Below, piece after piece: positions 27,950-55,337 of a DNA stretch of 64,000 nt (its first letter is position 1; every line of letters begins with the position of its first letter). The DNA comes from Panorpa germanica. Its lineage: Eukaryota; Arthropoda; Insecta; Mecoptera; Panorpidae. A program made the position numbers and the translations under genes. Below the pieces are notes generated by a model. The model was not told the DNA's origin. It saw only the letters and a program-made list of their open reading frames with translations, and made no database searches. The stretch is from positions 12,211,782-12,275,781 of the forward strand of contig OY783208.1 in NCBI GenBank assembly GCA_963678705.1, written 5' to 3'.

Positions 27950-28806
27950 AACTTAAGGAAATTCCGAAATTGGCTATGTTAAATTAAATCGAGAGGGCAG
28001 TATAAGAACTGTAAAGGCTCAAATATGCCCTGAACAACGCATAACTAAAAAAGACTATTTGGTAGAAGTTTCTATTGATAAAGAAGAAGACATTGTAAAA
28101 TATATAGTTTCGCAGTTGTACTGCTGTATTAGGTAAGGTTATTTACTTATGTATCGTATAATAAATTAGCTTTGATATTTACTTATTTTTTCTTATGTTT
28201 ATCAAATCATTTAATTTTACATTTTATTTAAGGTGGATGTAAGCATGTTCTCGCATTTCTTTGATAGATACATCGGAAAAGCGAAGAACCATCCACTACA
28301 GATATTGTATGTTACTGGCGAGCGCCACGCCTCGCTTCTATGGGTGTCAAGCTTTGAGATTCTCTAGAAAAAGCGAAGATGGAGAAGAGGAAGTAGTTAC
28401 CAGGACATGTTTAATTAATTTTTCTAGAGAATTAAGGACCTATATTAAAAAGGAAGGTATACTAAATACCACATACTTCCATACTGCTGAAAATCGTAGT
28501 GACTCTTTTAAATTGCCACTGCACCAATTATTGGCAGCATTTGCAAAAACTAATAACATAGATGTGGATAATTTCCTAAAGTATGCAACAAACAATATGC
28601 ATGTTCAGTCATGTATTCTTGCAGAGAAAAGCACAAATGAATAAAATAAATGGCCATTTTGGATAGAATTGCGGTATGGACGCATAACGGCTTTGAAAAT
28701 CTATGAAGCTGCACAATGCAAAACTCCAGATGGTGATTTAGTGAACGAAATTATAGGTATATTAAGGTTCTACACTGCTGATAATCGTAGTGACTTCTTT
28801 AAATTG
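27950..28806 (+). pseudogene. SWIM zinc finger / YqaJ-type protein of transposon origin, copy A (5-prime part)
   Basis: An exon at about 27955-28130 reads SEIGYVKLNREGSIRTVKAQ and KKDYLVEVSID, ending YIVSQLYCCI at a donor. After an intron of about 100 bp it resumes as GGCKHVLAFL, the C-x-H half of a SWIM zinc finger, then RKSEEPSTTDIV. Further on, CLINFSRELRTYIKKEG, LLAAFAKTNNIDVDNFLKY and WIELRYGRITASKIYEAAQC appear. The last resembles the start of YqaJ-type nuclease domains in insect multi-copy proteins. Stops (for example after the SWIM half and after STNE) show it is dead. The gypsy element interrupts it after AAATTG at 28801-28806, and it continues at 35912. Confidence 0.6.
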
Positions 28807-29998
28807 TGTAACAGTCCCATATAGATTCATTAATTATTAATATATTTTAACTAACTATTTAGGAACCATTGTAAAGGGTCATATACAAAGTAAAACGTAG
28901 ATTTTTAATAGTTTTAAGTCGCCTAACTGTCGGAAACATTATTTAGATTAAGTATTGCTTTATCAATAACCAACGCATATTATTATTATTATATTCAAAA
29001 CTGACGTTGTAGTATTTACAATAACTTTTTAAAAGAAATATTAATTAACTTCCTTTGTTTAAAGCACGTAATATTGTTTATAGTAGAACCAAATACAAAG
29101 TCCAAAGAAGTGATGACGTCTGACGTTCAAATGAGGTTATATATTGAAACAAAGACTTTTTAAGCTATATAAACCTAGTTTAAGAGGGGAGTGGGGATCA
29201 TTCCATCAGATCAGCCCCAGTGAGTCGGTCGGGTTTAAGTCAGTCGCCTCAATATAAAGATTATAAAGTTACTAAGAATTGTATTAAATAATTGTTTGAA
29301 TAATAAAGAAAATAGTGTTAATGAATACATTGTTTTAATTTGTAAAGTACTTAGAGTTAACGGTCGCGTCGCGTTAAAAAGAAGTGATTGTTCAACAGCA
29401 GAACTAGCAGCCTGCAGAAAGCACAAAAAGTAAGTAAAACCTAATATATTTATGTAATATGATTAGATGAAATACTAAGTCCTGATAAATAAATAAGCAT
29501 CCACAATTAGCTTGGTCATCCGACTCAAGGAGATCCAGATCTCTAAAAGAACTCTCGTTTGAGGGGATTGTAGAATCGCCCTCATAAAATAAGTAACTAC
29601 CACCATATATAGATAGTAGTATATAAGGGGTAGGGTTACATTTTGGTTTAAAATAGTTTATTTTATTTTATTTAACTAATAATTAAAAATAATTTTATCA
29701 ATTTACAATTCGTTAATATACTTTTGTCATAAATATTGTTTGTCATAATTTTTATTTGAGTTTTTATTGTTCTAACTCAGCTATATTAAATATACTAGCA
29801 TTTTGTTTGACCTACTTAAAAATAATTTGTTTGTTTATTTTTATGTATATAAACAAGTAGACGTTCCATTTCGTTTCAAAAAGTAAATCACAATAGTACA
29901 GATTTGTTAAAATAACTTAGGCCGTGTAAGGTATTGTTTACTTTTAAAAAATAGATTTGATTTTTCTCTCTTTCCTTTAACATCCAAGATTTTAAAAT
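28807..29998 (+). promoter_or_regulatory. gypsy 5-prime leader, probable LTR/promoter region
   Basis: No ORF. A TATA-like CTATATAAAC lies at 29165-29174, followed about 45 bp downstream by CAGCCCCAGTGAGTCGG, which could hold an initiator. AATAAAG-like signals occur further on at about 29302. A GC-richer hairpin (GAGGG...CCCTC) lies at about 29560-29584. These suggest a 5-prime LTR plus leader, but no primer-binding site or LTR end was identified. Confidence 0.35.
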
Positions 29999-30067: not shown

Positions 30068-30742
30068 ATGACAACTAATGAACCAAACGTAGATAATGCC
30101 CCAGAAATTCCTAAATTAAAAGGATTAAATTATATACCATTCTTTGACGGTACAGGTAGCATAGCAACATTTTTAAATGCGGTGTATCAAATGGCAGAAT
30201 TGTTGGATTGGACCGATAAGGTGCAATCAGTTACCGTATTTGCGAAAGTGTCGCCTGATGTAGCTGAATATCTTTTGTCTAATTCGGAGATTCAAAGCGA
30301 GAACCGTAGTTATAGGAGTATTCGTAATGCATTATTGTCTAGATATAGCAGAAAAGGGCCATCTGCTCTGAGACAAGCAGAAATTGAGTTCGGGGGTTGT
30401 AAACAAAGACATGGCGAGACTGTTTATGAATTTTCACAAAGGTTATGGGCAGTAGGGTCAAAATGTGTACCAGAAGCAACTGATAAAGAGCAAGAAAAGA
30501 AGCTTACAGTTGAGTTACAAGTAGCCGTTTTAAAAAGATTTAAAGAAGGGATATCGCCGAGATATTCTAAGTTTATTTGGGCCGCGGATCCCAAGAGTTT
30601 TAATAATGCCGTTGAAATTGCGGAAAGGGTAGAAACCGATGATTTAATCTCATCGAAGCAAGGCTACGTAGCAGAGATTGCTACAGGTGGTACAAACCGA
30701 ATAAATAGACCACTATTATGTAAATCGCACATCTCAAAATAA
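30068..30742 (+). CDS. gypsy Gag, matrix/capsid part
   Basis: ATG 30068 starts MTTNEPNVDNAPEIP. An in-frame ATG at 29999 would add a hydrophobic, less gag-like leader. Capsid-like features: IPFFDGTGSIATFLNAV, LLSRYSRKGPSALRQAE, HGETVYEFSQRLWAVG, and SFNNAVEIAERVETDDL. This is the usual order of Ty3/gypsy gags, which assemble the particle and package RNA. A one-base shift near 30715 separates it from the zinc-knuckle part and ends this frame early at TAA 30740. Confidence 0.75.
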   Translation: MTTNEPNVDNAPEIPKLKGLNYIPFFDGTGSIATFLNAVYQMAELLDWTDKVQSVTVFAKVSPDVAEYLLSNSEIQSENRSYRSIRNALLSRYSRKGPSALRQAEIEFGGCKQRHGETVYEFSQRLWAVGSKCVPEATDKEQEKKLTVELQVAVLKRFKEGISPRYSKFIWAADPKSFNNAVEIAERVETDDLISSKQGYVAEIATGGTNRINRPLLCKSHISK

Positions 30743-31184
30743 TCAATCGTCTATGCGACCTAGCAACTCGCGTAGCGGTTCACAAAGCCGAAGGTTAAAT
30801 AATAGGCAAAGAGATGGTGTAAGGTGTTACAATTGTAACAGAGTAGGACATTTTCAGAGAGATTGTCGTAGTCGTCCTCAACGGGAGATAAGGGACGTAA
30901 GAGATCGCTTTCAAAGAAATCGCAGTTCAAATAGGTATGAAAACCGTAATCAAAGTAATGACCGATTAGGGAGAGTTAGAGTCCTGCAAGAGTATAATGA
31001 TAGCCGTAGTCCTGCGAGAAATCAGAGACAGGTGACTTTCCAAAGTAACAGAAATATTCGCAGCATCGAAAATAAGCCAAGCGAAGTTGAAGAAAGAAAT
31101 TTACGCGCGTCCAATAATTATGAAGGTAATTTAAACGGATTGATGGCTTCACTCACTACCCGAGACGTAGAAGCCATTCAATAA
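30717..31184 (+). CDS. gypsy Gag, nucleocapsid zinc knuckle
   Basis: Continues Gag in the next frame and is open at least from 30717. It is very rich in arginine, serine and asparagine. One CCHC zinc knuckle, CYNCNRVGHFQRDC, begins at 30825 with standard C-x2-C-x4-H-x4-C spacing and would bind genomic RNA. It ends with VEAIQ and TAA, just before the protease frame. Confidence 0.75.
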   Translation, partial: YVNRTSQNNQSSMRPSNSRSGSQSRRLNNRQRDGVRCYNCNRVGHFQRDCRSRPQREIRDVRDRFQRNRSSNRYENRNQSNDRLGRVRVLQEYNDSRSPARNQRQVTFQSNRNIRSIENKPSEVEERNLRASNNYEGNLNGLMASLTTRDVEAIQ

Positions 31185-31207: not shown

Positions 31208-31837
31208 TTGTATGTACCGGCATTTCATGATAATCAATGGTTTCTTAATTTAGTAATTAATGGTCAAAATTGCAACGTTCTTATAGATAGTGGTGCAGGC
31301 GCCAGCCTACTAACTAGAGAATGTTTAAAAACGGAAAAAATTACAGAATCGCAAAATATTTTGCGAGATGCACAAAATAATAAAATACATACACTTGGTA
31401 AAAGCAAATTAAAGTTAGATTTATTTGGGGATAATGTGACTTTTGATTTTGAAATTGTAGAAAATATGGAAAATTGGACAGGGATAATTGGGTTAGACTT
31501 TCTTCGTAAATTTGGCATAATTGTAGATTTTGGAAAGGGTATTTTAATATATAGAAACGTTATTTACGACATTAATCGTAATACTGTACATGATTTTCAG
31601 AGAGATAATTTAAATATTAATAATATGATTAGAGAAAATGTAAATGGTATCATTAGAAAGCAAAAGCGTATTATATCAAAGTCAGGGAAAATCGTAGAAA
31701 AGAATAGAAAAGGTAGAAATATAGGTTGTACTGAAACGGAAAATATTGACGTAAAAAGAGAAATAAATAATCAGCGAATTGATAAGATAGGGCATGACTA
31801 TAAAAGTTTTGATGATTTTCTAAAATGGAAAAATTAG
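31208..31837 (+). CDS. gypsy aspartic protease
   Basis: The active-site motif LIDSGAGASLL (catalytic Asp about residue 27 of this frame) and the later IIGLDFLRKFG are the two hallmarks of retropepsin-like proteases, which cut the polyprotein. The frame has no ATG at its beginning (it opens with TTG), so it is probably made by frameshift or fusion from Gag. Its C-terminal 80 residues are basic and low in complexity. It ends at TAG 31835-31837, overlapping the next frame by about 14 bases. Confidence 0.75.
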   Translation: MYVPAFHDNQWFLNLVINGQNCNVLIDSGAGASLLTRECLKTEKITESQNILRDAQNNKIHTLGKSKLKLDLFGDNVTFDFEIVENMENWTGIIGLDFLRKFGIIVDFGKGILIYRNVIYDINRNTVHDFQRDNLNINNMIRENVNGIIRKQKRIISKSGKIVEKNRKGRNIGCTETENIDVKREINNQRIDKIGHDYKSFDDFLKWKN

Positions 31838-31859
31838 TAGATTTCCAACGATAGAGACG

Positions 31860-33695
31860 TTGTGCAAAATAAATTTTAATAAGGGAGATTTGTTTAATGC
31901 ATCTAGCAAGTATGCATTGGGTCATTGTGTAGCCTCAGATTTACGTATGTCACAAGGAATAGCAGTTGAATTTAAAGAAAGATTTGGTAGAGTTGAGCAG
32001 CTTTTGAAACAGAAACAGAAAAAGGGTGGATTAGCTATATTAAAAGATGAAAATCGTTTTATATATTATTTAGTAACCAAGAAGAGTAGTAACGAGAAAC
32101 CTCTCTACGCAGATTTATATTCGTCAATAATTAAATTAAGGGATCATATGTTAGAAAATAAAGTGAAATTTATTGCATTACCATACATAGCATGTGGGCT
32201 AGATAAATTAGATTTAACAATAGTGAGTAAAATGATTGAATATATATTTTCGGAATGTAAAATAAAGATAGCATTCTATGATGGCGAATCGGAAAAAGAT
32301 GAAAAAAGGTATATGAACTGTTTAATAAATAAAAATGATAATGATTTAAAAGGTAACATTGACGGAAAGTATATAAAAGCCCAAGAACAAGTGAAGAAAT
32401 GGAAGAATTTACAAACAAAGTGGTTAAAAAGAATAAACACAGCTGAGGGAGTTGAAAAAATAAAAATAAATATGAATGAGAAATCTGAAACCACTCGAAA
32501 GCGAACAGACGCACACACGTGTAGTAGTAATCGGTATAGTGTTAGGTTATTAAAGCCAGTAACGCTTTCGCCCCGATGTATAATAAATGTTCATGCGTTT
32601 CAAAAAGACATTAAGGAAGGTCATGGGATTTTTAACCCAGAATTGAGCATAGATGGATTAGTAGCAAGAAGTGTAAATTCAATATGTAAGGGTAGGTTAA
32701 TATGTAGAATAACCAATGTTAGGCAAAAGAATATAAATATACCAATAAATACTAAGATAGGTATAATAGAGCCATATGATAACGAATATACTGAAACAGT
32801 TGAATTATTAAGAGAACACGTCCGACAAAGAAATAAAAATATTTTAATTAGTGCTGTACGATCAGCAGAAGTAAACACAGGGTTTGAAAATATACAATTA
32901 TTTGATGAAATAGGTTATAATAATTTAACAGCTAAAGAAGATAAAATTATACATGAAGTTACCAATCAGTGGAAGCAAAGAAGTCATAAGAATGATGATA
33001 TAAATAAAACACAGAGAATAACGGAACTTTTTAGTAAAGCGAGGGAAAACAAGGTTAGAGTTTGCATAGATTACAGGGGTCTTAACGCAATAACAAAAAG
33101 AGATTACTTTCCATTACCACACTTAGTAGACACTCTTGATAAATTAGGCAAAGCAAGTTTATTTACCAAATTAGATTTAGCATCCGGATTTTGGCAAATT
33201 GAAATGGATGAAAAATCTAAAGAATTAACAGCATTTTCAACACCAGATTTACACCTTCAATTTAATGTTATGCCGTTTGGGTTAGTATCAGCTCCTGCTA
33301 CATTTCAGAGACTTATGTATGCAGTGTTAGCAGGTTTAACCGGAGTACATTGTTTAGTTTACCTAGATGATATTATAATATTTAGTAACGATGATGTAGA
33401 TTCGCATATCCAGAGAATTAAAGAGGTTTTCGATCGCTTGAGAGAAGCAAGTTTGACATTGAAGCCTAGCAAATGTGAATTTATGAATAAAGAAACGCAA
33501 TATCTTGGTCATATTATTTCTAGTGATGGTGTAAAGGCAGATCCAGAAAAAACAGAAGCAATTAGAAACTATCCGCGTCCGAAAACAGTTAAACAAATCC
33601 GATCTTTTATAGGGTTAGCTTCATTTTATAGACGATTTATAAAGAATTTTTCAGAATTATCATCAAGCCTAACAAAACTAACTTGTAAAAAATGA
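31860..33695 (+). CDS. gypsy Pol: TARG1/OARD1-like macrodomain fused to reverse transcriptase
   Basis: A 611-residue frame opening at TTG 31860 (open upstream to 31824). Residues 1-142 form a macrodomain of the TARG1/OARD1 type: KGDLFNASSKYALGHCVASD (first ADP-ribose loop), RMSQGIAVEFKERFG, GGLAILKDENRFIYYLVTKK, and LPYIACGLDKL. Human OARD1 uses Lys84 and Asp125 to remove ADP-ribose; the equivalents K74 (VTKK) and D115 (GLDK) are present. Residues about 220-310 look like the usual linker between protease and RT. RT follows: VRVCIDYRGLNAITKRDYFP, FTKLDLASGFWQI, MPFGLVSAPATFQRLM, and catalytic YLDD at 501-504 (33360-33371). The stretch normally just before VRVCIDYRG is missing. The frame ends at TGA after one extra A in the A-run at 33687-33692. 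Confidence 0.85.
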   Translation: MCKINFNKGDLFNASSKYALGHCVASDLRMSQGIAVEFKERFGRVEQLLKQKQKKGGLAILKDENRFIYYLVTKKSSNEKPLYADLYSSIIKLRDHMLENKVKFIALPYIACGLDKLDLTIVSKMIEYIFSECKIKIAFYDGESEKDEKRYMNCLINKNDNDLKGNIDGKYIKAQEQVKKWKNLQTKWLKRINTAEGVEKIKINMNEKSETTRKRTDAHTCSSNRYSVRLLKPVTLSPRCIINVHAFQKDIKEGHGIFNPELSIDGLVARSVNSICKGRLICRITNVRQKNINIPINTKIGIIEPYDNEYTETVELLREHVRQRNKNILISAVRSAEVNTGFENIQLFDEIGYNNLTAKEDKIIHEVTNQWKQRSHKNDDINKTQRITELFSKARENKVRVCIDYRGLNAITKRDYFPLPHLVDTLDKLGKASLFTKLDLASGFWQIEMDEKSKELTAFSTPDLHLQFNVMPFGLVSAPATFQRLMYAVLAGLTGVHCLVYLDDIIIFSNDDVDSHIQRIKEVFDRLREASLTLKPSKCEFMNKETQYLGHIISSDGVKADPEKTEAIRNYPRPKTVKQIRSFIGLASFYRRFIKNFSELSSSLTKLTCKK

Positions 33696-35751
33696 GACAT
33701 TTATTTGGGGACCTGAACAAGAGAAAAGTTTTGAAGCATTAAAAAACGCGTTATGTTCTGAGCCAGTCTTAGCTTACCCAGATTTTAGTCAAGAATTTAT
33801 ATTAGGTACAGATGCATCAGGAATAGCATTAGGCGCAATTCTAAGCCAAGTTCAGGATGGAGTAGAACGTCCTGTCGCATACGCTTCTCGTAAATTAAAT
33901 AAATGTGAGAAAAATTACTCAACCACAGAAAGGGAATGTTTAGCGATTTTATGGAGTTTATCACATTTTCGTACGTATTTATATGGTAAGAAATTTAAGA
34001 TTCAAACAGATCACCGATCATTACGTTGGTTAATGACTATGAAAGATCCAATGAAAAGTAGATTAGCACGGTGGGCTTTAACTTTAGCAGATTACGATTT
34101 TGAAATTATTTATAGACCAGGGGTAAAACACAGTAATGTCGATGCATTAAGTAGAATAGAAACAGAAAGTATTGCAGCCGTAGCAGCTGAAGAAGTTCCA
34201 TATTGGGATTGGTGTCAAATTAAAAATGAACAAGCTAGTGATTCCCATATTAATCAATTAATAACGCAAACTAAGTATGGAGAGAAAAATGATTATTATT
34301 TAGATGACAGGGGTATACTGTATAAGAAAAGTAATGAAAAAACAGATAGAAATGACTGTGTAGTAGCACCAACACGAATGGTACCGAATATATTATATAT
34401 GTTTCACAATACGCCTTCAGCAGGGCATAGGGCATTTGAAGGGACACTACAGATAATAAAGAAACATTTTGTATGGCCAGCAATGAGACAAGACATAAAA
34501 AGATACTGTGAAGAATGTTTAAGCTGTCAAATGAGAAAAACTTCACCTCATTTAAAACGAGCACCGTTACAGAAATTTAAACCGCTTACTTATCCATTTG
34601 AAAGAATTTCACTAGATATTGTAGGACCATTAGTACTCAGTAATTCAGGAATGAAGTACATTTTAACAGTTCAATGTGCATTCTCAAAATACTTGCAAGC
34701 GTTTGCAATACCTGATCAGTCTGCAGAAACAGTAGCAAAGGTATTTTGTGAACAAGTCATAGCACGTTATGGTACTCCTAAAGCTTTATTGACAGATAGA
34801 GGAACTAATTTTTTGTCCGAATTATTTAGAAACGTTTGTAAGAGACTAGACATTACGCAACTTTCAACATCAGCGTATTCTCCTTCGACAAACGGAAGTT
34901 TAGAACGTTGTCATCGTATATTAAAAGACTATTTGTCACATTTCGTGGATTCTGATCAAAGGAATTGGGATTCCTGTTTAAACTACGCTGTCATGGCATA
35001 CAATGCAGCTATACATAGTTCGACACAAGAAACACCATTTTTTCTAATGCATGGTCGTGATATGGTATTACCATATGGTGAAGTATTAAAACCTGAAAGA
35101 GTTAGATACGACCTCGATGATAATTATGCCGCTGAACTAATTTTAAGATTAAAGAACGCTTTTAAGTTATGTACAGAAAGGTTAGAAACCGCAAAAGATA
35201 GACAAGCTAAACAATATAATAAAAAGTCGGAACCGGTCAAATTTAAAATAGGTGATCATGTGCTATTGAAACATATGACGCACACACCAGGATTAAGTAG
35301 AAAACTTGGAAAAGTATGGCGAGGTCCTTATAGAATTATTGATAGAACCAGCGAAGTAAATTTTTTAATAAAAGAAATTTATGGAAAACGAGAAGAACGA
35401 GTGCATGTTAATCGCCTCAAGAAATTTAAAGGTAATACAGCTGAGGTATTCTCAGGAAATAATGAAGTTCATTCAGAAGGTGAATCTGAAGATGAAGAAA
35501 ATGGTATAAATCTAAATACAGGTTTCGGTAATTTATTCAATTTTGGTTATACTAATGATACGAATAATGAGATATCAGATGAGATAGAAGAAATAATCGA
35601 GATAGACACGAATATTGATAATAATGACAATATAGAGAATATTGATATTGAGATAGAAAATCCAGTTGAAGATACAATTGGGCATAGTTACTCTTTGCGC
35701 AGCCGATGCGTTGCACCAAAACAACCGTGGATATCGAATAGTAGAATATAA
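33691..35751 (+). CDS. gypsy Pol: RNase H and integrase
   Basis: The frame shifts by one base from RT and is open from 33691. RNase H motifs: ILGTDASGIALGAILSQ, TTERECLAILWSL, IQTDHRSLRWLM. Integrase: an HHCC zinc-binding region ending CEECLSCQ, catalytic core ISLDIVGPL, LLTDRGTNFLSELF, and NGSLERCHRILKDYL with the D, D and E residues. A GPY/F-type module follows (WRGPYRIIDR...VHVNRLKKF). The C-terminus is acidic and asparagine-rich and ends with a YSLRSR motif. The integrase is intact as read. An ATG at 34033 lies inside RNase H and is not a real start. Confidence 0.85.
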   Translation, partial: NETFIWGPEQEKSFEALKNALCSEPVLAYPDFSQEFILGTDASGIALGAILSQVQDGVERPVAYASRKLNKCEKNYSTTERECLAILWSLSHFRTYLYGKKFKIQTDHRSLRWLMTMKDPMKSRLARWALTLADYDFEIIYRPGVKHSNVDALSRIETESIAAVAAEEVPYWDWCQIKNEQASDSHINQLITQTKYGEKNDYYLDDRGILYKKSNEKTDRNDCVVAPTRMVPNILYMFHNTPSAGHRAFEGTLQIIKKHFVWPAMRQDIKRYCEECLSCQMRKTSPHLKRAPLQKFKPLTYPFERISLDIVGPLVLSNSGMKYILTVQCAFSKYLQAFAIPDQSAETVAKVFCEQVIARYGTPKALLTDRGTNFLSELFRNVCKRLDITQLSTSAYSPSTNGSLERCHRILKDYLSHFVDSDQRNWDSCLNYAVMAYNAAIHSSTQETPFFLMHGRDMVLPYGEVLKPERVRYDLDDNYAAELILRLKNAFKLCTERLETAKDRQAKQYNKKSEPVKFKIGDHVLLKHMTHTPGLSRKLGKVWRGPYRIIDRTSEVNFLIKEIYGKREERVHVNRLKKFKGNTAEVFSGNNEVHSEGESEDEENGINLNTGFGNLFNFGYTNDTNNEISDEIEEIIEIDTNIDNNDNIENIDIEIENPVEDTIGHSYSLRSRCVAPKQPWISNSRI

Positions 35752-35911
35752 CTAATTATAACTGTCAGAGTTTCAATAGGATATAAATTAGTTAAGGTCA
35801 ATTTAAAAAAGGGATTATTTTATCGTTAAATTAGTTGTAAATGGGACTAATATTGTACTTTAATATTTTACGAGTAAAATAAACATAAAAACAGAAAGGT
35901 CACGAGTTAAG

Positions 35912-36170
35912 AAATTGTCACACCAACTATTGGCAGAATTTGGAAAAAAAAAATCACATAGATGTGGATAATTTTCTAAATTATGCAATTAGCAATTTCC
36001 TAAACTACGCAACACGAAGTATACATGTTTCGACATGTATACTTGCGGAAAAAGAACTAACGACCAGAGCAAAAGTGCTCATTATGGGTAGAAAGGTGTC
36101 ATGACCGATAACTGCCTCTAAAATGTATGAAATAGCACATTATAACATTTCTGATGTTATATTTAGTTAC
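35912..36170 (+). pseudogene. SWIM/YqaJ-type gene copy A, 3-prime continuation
   Basis: Resumes after the gypsy element with CCAACTATTGGCAGAATTTG, ACATAGATGTGGATAATTTT and a diverged ILAEK-like segment. It matches 43400-43500 and 43680-43700. It is heavily decayed, and further matches fade after about 36170. Confidence 0.6.
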
Positions 36171-42989: not shown

Positions 42990-43796
42990 CATTAGGTAAG
43001 GTTATTTACTTATGTATCGTATAATAAATAAGCTTTGATATTTACTTATTTTTTCTTATGTTTATCAAATCATTTAATTTTACATTTTATTTAAGGTGGA
43101 TGTAAACAGGTTCTCGCATTTCTTTGTTGGATACATCGGAAAAGCGAAGAACCATCCACTACAGATATTGTCTGTTACTGGCGAGTGCCACGTCTCGCTT
43201 CTATGGGTGTCAAGCTTTAAGATTCTCTAGGAAAAGTAAGCGAAGGTGGAGAAGAGAAAGTAGTTACCAGCACATGTTTGATTAATTTTTCTAGAACATT
43301 AAGGACCAATATTAAAGTGGAAGGTATACTAAATACAGCATACTTCCATACTGCTGATAATCGTAGTGACTCTTTTAAATTGCCACTACACCAATTATTG
43401 GCAGCATTTGCAAAAACTAATAACATAGATGTGGATAATTTCCTAAAGTATGCAACAAACAATTTGCCTGTTCAGTCATGTATTCTTGCGGAGAAAAGCA
43501 CAAATGAATAAAATAAATGGCCATTTTGGATAGAATTGCGGTATGGACGCATAACGGCTTCGAAAATCTATGAAGCTGCACAATGCAAAACTCCAGATGG
43601 TGATTTAGTGAACGAAATTATAGGTATATTAAGGTTCTACACTGCTGATAATCGTAGTGACGTTTTTAAATTGTCACTACTACGCCAACTATTGGCAGAC
43701 TTGATATACGAAAAAACTGCAGAATATTATTCTAGTGCTTCGTCCCCAGAAGATGTTCGTAAGCAGTTTGAAATTAATCTTTAGTTTGAAATTAAA
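42990..43796 (+). pseudogene. SWIM/YqaJ-type gene, copy B
   Basis: It begins at the intron shared with copy A (TTAGGTAAGGTTATTTACTT), then GGCKQVLAFLCWIHRKSEEP, CLINFSRTLRTNIKVEG, FHTADNRSDSFKLPLHQLLA, LRYGRITASKIYEAAQC and DLIYEKTAEYYSSASSPEDV. The SWIM residue corresponding to His of copy A (CKH) is Gln here. One stop (after STNE) and frame changes interrupt it. It is truncated 5-prime compared with copy A. Confidence 0.6.
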
Positions 43797-44402
43797 GCTT
43801 TAAGATTCTCTAGGAAAAGTAAGCGAAGGTGGAGAAGAGAAAGTAGTTACCAGCACATGTTTGATTAATTTTTCTAGAACATTAAGGACCAATATTAAAG
43901 TGGAAGGTATACTAAATACAGCATACTTCCATACTGCTGATAATCGTAGTGACTCTTTTAAATTGCCACTACACCAATTATTGGCAGCATTTGCAAAAAC
44001 TAATAACATAGATGTGGATAATTTCCTAAAGTATGCAACAAACAATTTGCCTGTTCAGTCATGTATTCTTGCGGAGAAAAGCACAAATGAATAAAATAAA
44101 TGGCCATTTTGGATAGAATTGCGGTATGGACGCATAACGGCTTCGAAAATCTATAAAGCTGCACAATGCAAAACTCCAGATGGTGATTTAGTGAACGAAA
44201 TTATAGGTATATTAAGGTTCTACACTGCTGATAATCGTAGTGACTCTTTTAAATTGTCACTACTACGCCAACTATTGGCAGACTTGATATACGAAAAAAC
44301 TGCAGAATATTATTCTAGTGCTTCGTCCCCAGAAGATGTTCGTAAGCAGTTTGAAATTAATCGCAAATATGTGCGTAGGAAATTAAAAAAGCGAGGAAGA
44401 TA
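43797..44402 (+). pseudogene. SWIM/YqaJ-type gene, tandem duplicate C
   Basis: Almost identical to 43214-43790, offset by 583 bp. The join lies at AGCTTTAAGATTCTCTAGG. It differs at a few bases and continues further 3-prime (EINRKYVRRKLKKRGR, TAG at 44401). It lacks the SWIM part. The near identity points to a recent duplication or to an assembly repeat. Confidence 0.75.
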
Positions 44403-54284: not shown

Positions 54285-55337
54285 TTGGTAGAAGGAATGC
54301 ACCTGATTCCAAAATACAATGTAACGACAAACCCAAAGAAGTTCCTAAAGCAACTAGAGGTTGTAGCGAGCATGTACGGCTGGGATAGCCACATAAAAGC
54401 CTTCGTGTGCAGACAGAACCTGACAGGTGAAGCAGAAGCTACCGTAGAACAGGATGACCTCCTGAATGAAACAGATGACTACGAGCTACTGATAAGAGGA
54501 TTAACAGAACGTTATTCTCTAACGGTAAGATGCCAGCACCAGCGCATAGAAGCAGAATTTGACAACTGCTCACAAAAACCAGGAGAGAGTGTCCTAGAAT
54601 ACAGCACCAGACTAGCAGCACTAGGCCCACGCTTAAAAGACCACTACGCGCAGAATCTCAAGATAGCAGATGAAGCTAGGCCACAATAGCAACAGATGAT
54701 GCTACTGTCGAGATTCAGAAACGGACTAAGACCGGACTTAGCAGAGGTGGTGTACGTACACGATTGTCCAGACTTCAACAGCGCCGTAGATTACGCAATA
54801 AGAGTGGAAACCGCAAAAAAAAAGAATAAACCCAACAAGACATGTACTAGCAGGGACCACCACTACAGCAGAGAGCTACAGCATGCCGCCAAAAGCTCCA
54901 ATGACCACCCCTACACCCCGCGTAGACCGGTACTATGCTCAACCGACGCTAGCACCAAGAAGAGATGTAACTACAAGCTTACCCCCTTCCGCACCACCGC
55001 TAGTACAATTGCACGAGTATTAGTAGAAGAAATTATTTCTAGACATGGATGCCCAGAACAACTATTAACAGATCGAGGCGCAAATTTCCTATCAGAATTA
55101 TTTCAAAACATATGCAAACAATTAGGAATAAAACGATTGCAAACCGTCGCTTATCATCCCCAAACGAATGGACAAGTAGAAAGATACAATCGAACCCTAA
55201 AGTCATATTTACGAAATTTTATAGACGAAAATCAAACTAATTGGGACGAGATCTTGCCATTAGCATTACTAGCCTATCGTAGCACCGTGAATACAACAAC
55301 ATCAAAAACGCCTTATTTTCTTATACACGGCAGATGA
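54285..55337 (+). pseudogene. Ty3/gypsy deletion derivative: Gag fused to integrase core
   Basis: One frame from 54285, open upstream to about 54247 with no clear ATG. Gag part: NPKKFLKQLEVVASMYGW, CQHQRIEAEFDNCSQKPG, ESVLEYSTRLAALGPRL. TAG at 54687-54689 interrupts it, then Gag continues with MMLLSRFRNGLRPDLAEV. Near 54980 it passes straight into integrase: ISRHGCPEQLLTDRGANFL, VAYHPQTNGQVERYNRTLK, ending PYFLIHGR. The protease, RT, RNase H and first integrase aspartate are missing. Confidence 0.8.

Follow-up and report, generated by a model that had tools for sequence, protein, structure and literature searches.

Candidate ADP-ribose erasers: TARG1-type macrodomains within the pol genes of several Ty3/gypsy families of Panorpa germanica

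A 64,000-nucleotide stretch of the Panorpa germanica genome (GenBank assembly GCA_963678705.1, contig OY783208.1, positions 12,211,782 to 12,275,781 of the forward strand; hereafter the window) contains a Ty3/gypsy element in which a TARG1/OARD1-type macrodomain is encoded at 31863-32282 (+), between the protease and the reverse transcriptase (RT). The element belongs to a family called A here, and at least six further gypsy families of the same genome (B to G) carry a related domain. Analysis of these sequences suggests that a TARG1-type macrodomain has become a selected part of several gypsy Pol polyproteins, and we consider it rather probable that the domain acts as an ADP-ribosylhydrolase in cis in families A, B, C, E and F, and as a reader or spacer in families D and G.

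The domain lies in a 155-residue frame (P0001; 31824-32290, +) that an earlier model-made annotation (the sequence-only reading) had taken for a TARG1/OARD1-like macrodomain inside a Ty3/gypsy pol gene. That identification holds: in a phmmer search of the PDB, human TARG1 (also named OARD1 or C6orf130) is 46% identical to P0001 over 138 residues (15-152), without gaps and at E 8.4e-37, which rules out chance similarity, and all five distinct PDB sequences matched at E 0.1 or below are TARG1. The AlphaFold model of P0001 (pLDDT 83.6) retrieves TARG1 as its top 8 Foldseek matches (best TM 0.85, rmsd 1.6 Å), directly followed by DarG as matches 9-11; the window domain is thus nearest to TARG1 in both sequence and fold. 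The Pfam Macro profile scores 19.3 bits (E 1e-3), under Pfam's own cut-off of 22 bits, so that the domain is invisible to a Pfam-only test. Domain and RT share a 623-codon open frame, as had been claimed. Both catalytic residues are also present: the K74 and D115 of the sequence-only reading, numbered from the TTG at 31860, correspond to K86 and D127 of P0001 and align gaplessly to human Lys84 and Asp125.

This catalytic dyad is retained in five of the seven families. In family A, for which residues were counted in the best-scoring 30 of 59 loci, Lys84 is kept in 30 and Asp125 in 29; in the family B loci read, each is kept in 11 of 11; and the single loci of families C, E and F have kept both.

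Family A, defined as matches at least 60% identical to the window domain, is numerous. A domain search of the 464-Mb genome, in which the best 150 of 592 candidates were scored and from which all copy counts are lower bounds, yielded at least 59 family A matches, which two overlapping pairs reduce to 57 places, the window included. Nine copies have uninterrupted frames, eight of 1636-1638 codons and one of 1571 codons, and the protease is in frame with the macrodomain in all five of these nine that were tested, but in the window copy itself the two are out of frame. The two family A copies examined with both long terminal repeats (LTRs) have LTR pairs of 982 nt and 970 nt without any difference and are flanked by target duplications of 4 bp (ATAT and CCAA), the combination of paired LTRs and short target-site duplication that is characteristic of Ty3/gypsy elements. 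If insect DNA changes at about 3e-9 substitutions per site and year, identical LTRs make the dated copies well under a million years old. Family A is alive or was very recently active. No envelope gene (env) was found behind pol in two family A copies, in which the only forward frame of at least 60 codons before the 3' LTR has 61 codons (pieces scanned apart).

The window copy is itself broken, as might be expected of a one-off OARD1 retrocopy inserted in a dead element, of a recent OARD1 pseudogene in such an element, or of an assembly chimera, and the sequence-only reading had named a one-off insertion or a chimera as the outcome that would undo its claim. The 59 same-family matches, the frames that run intact through protease, macrodomain and beyond, and the two identical LTR pairs rule out a retrocopy, a pseudogene or a chimera, and the edges of the window domain show no start codon, stop codon or poly(A)-derived lysine run; we accord explanations of this kind a negligible probability.

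The sequence-only reading understated the extent of the phenomenon, having missed the six or more further families, five of which carry the domain at a second position. By identity, 76 of the 150 scored matches (39-53%) fall to family B, at least two of them being pieces of family A copies, and 18 family B matches lie in frames of exactly 1389 codons; family C accounts for 2 of the 150 (35%), and families D and E together for 13 (29-31%). Families F and G were added by a second genome search with the OARD1-like protein P0004 (150 scored of 572 candidates). No host OARD1 gene was recognised among those 150, although a split gene might have had its exons displaced from this list. Two loci considered as short stand-alone frames, L085 and L086, both proved to sit between RT and integrase pieces.

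For families B to G, the architecture was taken from a single representative per family. The domain lies between protease and RT in families A and D, and between the end of RNase H and the integrase (the RH-IN position) in families B, C, E, F and G. The family E locus (L084, 945-2822, -) is an errantivirus-like macrodomain gypsy element: a 626-residue frame of the Baculo_F type of envelope (E 7e-61) follows directly behind pol, the arrangement that marks errantiviruses. In family F, a pair of 284-nt repeats, 99.3% identical, flanks pol. The family G frame (L098, 854-2800) opens with a DUF1759 stretch (E 3e-31) ahead of the protease, presumably a gag-like part.

Database relatives were collected by RT as the best 120 of 5052 matches, most of them partial. 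The only bearer among these 120 is P0081, in which a diverged TARG1 domain lies between RNase H and integrase; this domain has TARG1 as its best PDB match (E 5e-8) and has kept Lys84 and Asp125 and not loop 1. The motif distances agree with these placements: protease and RT motifs are 595 codon equivalents apart in the window element versus 227-346 in those relatives (16 of 120) where both can be seen, and RNase H and integrase motifs are 304 apart in P0081 versus 116-209 in the 18 others among the 19 of 120 that span this interval.

The codons of the macrodomain show purifying selection in both family A and family B. The ratio of nonsynonymous to synonymous polymorphism (pN/pS) of the family A domain is 0.33 (0.17-0.59) in 26 of 29 loci, the window being left out and the three loci with stops dropped, and that of the family B domain is 0.29 (0.15-0.47) in 11 loci. 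In eight of the nine long-frame A copies (L055, out of register, was dropped), the domain gives 0.28 (0.07-1.06) and the 500 codons behind it give 0.31 (0.19-0.54), a constraint about equal to that of the neighbouring pol, with an interval that for these eight alone includes neutrality.

The RT tree (63 rows) joins families A and D in one clade (support 98/95) and places C, E, F, G and P0081 within a clade of 11 rows (100/98). P0030, P0090 and P0123 belong to this clade too, with an RH-IN distance too short for the domain. Family B stands apart from the other families, with spider 297-like elements (99/98); one of these near B, P0072, has about 97 residues from RNase H to the integrase core and no macrodomain match. 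A single clade of all RH-IN bearers is rejected on the RT tree (p 5e-7), and the RH-IN trait needs four changes over 20 scored rows. As the RH-IN bearers do not form one clade, there must have been repeated gains of the domain, transfers from element to element, or many losses; we favour repeated gain or exchange over repeated loss, although the counts fit both.

These results bear on the view that the domains are passengers, fragments of host mRNA captured during reverse transcription and tolerated without benefit at domain boundaries. Both positions would indeed fall between enzymes of the polyprotein, and P0081 alone bears the domain among the 120 relatives, just 16 of which span the interval from protease to RT and 19 the RH-IN interval; against this stand the pN/pS of about 0.3 in A and B, the rejection of a single RH-IN clade and the presence of several high-copy families within one genome, and we regard the passenger explanation as improbable.

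The tree of the domains themselves joins C, E and F firmly (100/99) and A and B weakly (90/81). A grouping of the B domain with C, E and F is not rejected (p 0.26), nor is one clade of all retroelement macrodomains (p-AU 0.44 with 35 rows and 0.48 with 13 rows; support 42/28 in a 31-row tree). Building such a tree with insect OARD1 genes had been suggested as a means of dating the capture, for which, as for naming the source gene, the trees proved too weak. Searches of viral contigs with P0001, the RT and the P0081 domain found no relative, and neither did a search of prokaryote genome contigs with P0001; a scan of viral contigs with alignment A2 gave 50 OARD1-like loci, which were used in the residue counts and trees. 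These genes (L001-L050, on 50 viral contigs) have Leu for Met at human position 40 in 36 of 50 and Asn at human position 80 in 49 of 50. Searching proteins with the end of the pol frame that holds the macrodomain returned two, neither recognisable as a retroelement, and searching with P0001 returned five OARD1-like proteins. The protein P0002, from a marine protist transcript collection, combines a NADAR domain (PF08719, by database listing) with two TARG1-like domains, a fusion of two kinds of ADP-ribose erasers.

The presence of such a domain in several gypsy families suggests that they use it to reverse, or to recognise, a modification that the host places on element proteins or DNA. The element protease would release the macrodomain, or the domain would remain beside RT or integrase in the particle; host ADP-ribosyltransferases would place mono-ADP-ribose on Glu or Asp of element proteins, alternative targets being phosphate ends or thymidines of element RNA or cDNA, or integration gaps; and hydrolysis of the mono-ADP-ribose by the domain would unblock reverse transcription or integration. 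Because a domain carried by pol would be close to newly made cDNA ends and integration gaps, an eraser in cis is favoured for families A, B, C, E and F. In families D and G, where the dyad is broken, the domain may act as a reader or structural spacer.

Several observations weigh against erasure. In the window domain the residues at TARG1 Gly41, Ala42, Gly121 and Trp129 are changed. The Gly-rich phosphate loop 1, MGAG in human TARG1, reads MSQG in 30 of 30 family A loci, with Gly41 replaced by Ser and Ala42 by Gln in all 30; position 41 is non-glycine or deleted in every family read and glycine in all 57 other homologs (7 cellular ones and 50 viral-contig loci, or 37 distinct segments). All 30 A loci have Ala for Gly121, as do 5 of the 57 other homologs; for Trp129, 29 of the 30 have Phe, the window copy alone having Leu. 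With loop 1 thus altered, the family A domain is to be taken as a TARG1 relative with candidate activity only; the loss of Gly41 across families may have been inherited from a single source or may have arisen by convergence. The counts of conserved residues in family A are themselves favoured by the use of the best-scoring loci. Loop 1, Lys84 and Asp125 are all lost in 7 of 7 family D loci, and the single family G locus has kept Lys84 and lacks Asp125; since these dyad-broken families have many copies, hydrolysis is not required by all. For the eight intact A copies alone, the pN/pS interval of the domain reaches 1.06, and the pN/pS of family D is 0.50 with a wide interval (0.17-2.8). Erasure is further weakened by the possibility of repeated loss and by the small number of database relatives that span either position.

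These altered pockets leave room for a domain that is catalytic in no family and serves throughout as a reader or spacer: it would bind ADP-ribose on the preintegration complex or on chromatin, aiding targeting or assembly, and the dyad would be a relic. The change of the loop-1 glycine in all families read, the clearly degenerate pockets of D, G and P0081, and the placement of the domain directly before the integrase in five families are as such a role would have it; that A, B, C, E and F, for all their difference in sequence, have kept Lys84 together with Asp125 argues to the contrary, and we judge a reader or spacer throughout to be unlikely, if well worth considering. Macrodomains are known as counter-defence enzymes of RNA viruses, and the TARG1-type domains at two sites in the pol of several gypsy families indicate that ADP-ribosylation exerts selective pressure on animal LTR elements. 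More tentatively, and short of calling it probable, ADP-ribosylation may be a general barrier to gypsy elements in this host lineage, against which a TARG1 eraser was repeatedly acquired or exchanged, beside RT or beside integrase; this would be a retroelement counter-defence parallel to that of the viral macrodomains, and would include an env-bearing, errantivirus-like family. The series of dyad-bearing (A, B, C, E, F) and broken-dyad (D, G) families amounts to a natural experiment on eraser versus reader.

The window element (all parts on the + strand) has the Ty3/gypsy order of protease, RT, RNase H and integrase and an RT of the Ty3 type. It begins at the point where a flanking repeat stops (28807) with a 5' LTR (28807-29640), which starts TGTAACAGTCC and ends GGTAGGGTTACA, its ends having been defined from two relatives. 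An N-terminal part of gag with broken frame follows (30068-30742; an open reading frame (ORF) with no Pfam match, 33% identical to the family D gag frame), then a nucleocapsid part with a CCHC knuckle (30753-31184; Pfam zf-CCHC, E 6e-7), an aspartic protease with a basic linker (31208-31837; Pfam gag-asp_proteas, E 8e-7, and RVP, E 3e-5) and the macrodomain with its Lys84 and Asp125 equivalents. Behind the latter come a linker and pre-RT region (32283-33041), the RT core (33042-33695; Pfam RVT_1, E 2e-38; best PDB match Ty3 RT, E 2e-51), an RNase H in a frame different from that of RT (33697-34041, from its translation; Pfam RT_RNaseH_2, E 2e-41), the RNase H end with the H2C2, core and C-terminal domains of the integrase (34033-35751; Pfam Integrase_H2C2, 2e-18, rve, 2e-12, and Integrase_p58_C, 5e-8), and a residual 3' untranslated part (35752-35914), at the end of which, at 35909-35914, the match to four relatives stops without a 3' LTR.

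This copy is dead: about 98 codons of the RT fingers are gone near the 3' end of the pre-RT region, the span from the macrodomain to the DYRG motif being 260 codons versus 358 in eight relatives. Gag, protease, macrodomain-RT and RNase H-integrase are in mutually different frames; a leader of 800-870 nt behind the 5' LTR, present in four relatives, is missing; and everything past about 35914 is lost, the 3' LTR included, leaving only the 5' LTR. The insertion site is a repeat found at 28128-28807, 42991-43674 and 43795-44257 (copies 94-95% identical). At 35912 the gypsy copy runs into another paralog of this flanking repeat (82%), and the right side is accordingly rearranged. A second gypsy remnant lies at 54285-55337, with gag 26% and integrase 53% identical to those of the macrodomain element; its gag adjoins the integrase, the remaining pol between them being missing.

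No description of a gypsy pol with a macrodomain was recognised among the matches listed in the open PMC library; this agrees with the sequence-only reading, to which no such lineage was known, and the novelty is provisional. Accessory domains known from LTR elements include chromodomains and a DnaQ-like exonuclease, ADP-ribose not being mentioned in the accessible part of that source (PMC6338049). TARG1 strips ADP-ribose both from protein Glu and Asp residues and from nucleic acids modified at phosphate ends (PMC9411070), prefers RNA 5' ends over DNA in vitro (PMC11833690), and reverses thymidine ADP-ribosylation in DNA, where rescue is abolished by K84A (PMC8501950). Human TARG1 resembles the window domain in its fold, 46% of its residues and the catalytic Lys84 and Asp125, but is a stand-alone cellular protein, whereas the family A domain is an internal part of a polyprotein, with Gly41, Ala42 and Gly121 replaced. 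Macrodomains also lie within viral polyproteins in alphavirus nsP3 and in coronavirus Nsp3; alphavirus macrodomain structures match the window domain at merely 10-15% identity (Foldseek). The DarG macrodomain, the next best structural match, has a TARG1-like fold but is a bacterial antitoxin without the full Lys/Asp dyad (PMC9411070).

Among retroelements, the nearest published statement found is that epsilon-like endogenous retroviruses of teleosts sometimes bear macro-domain ORFs (PMC4977317). They, too, are retroelements that acquired a macrodomain gene, but there it is an additional ORF of a vertebrate retrovirus, whereas here it is a domain in frame inside pol, at two sites, in Ty3/gypsy elements. 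The source cited for these fish ORFs is Basta et al. 2009. Orchid Ty3/gypsy elements encode an AlkB m6A demethylase that is active in vitro (PMC9289625). They are gypsy elements that have captured an enzyme for erasing a mark on nucleic acids, as the present ones may have, but they differ in the enzyme, in its location in a separate ORF2 and in their plant hosts.
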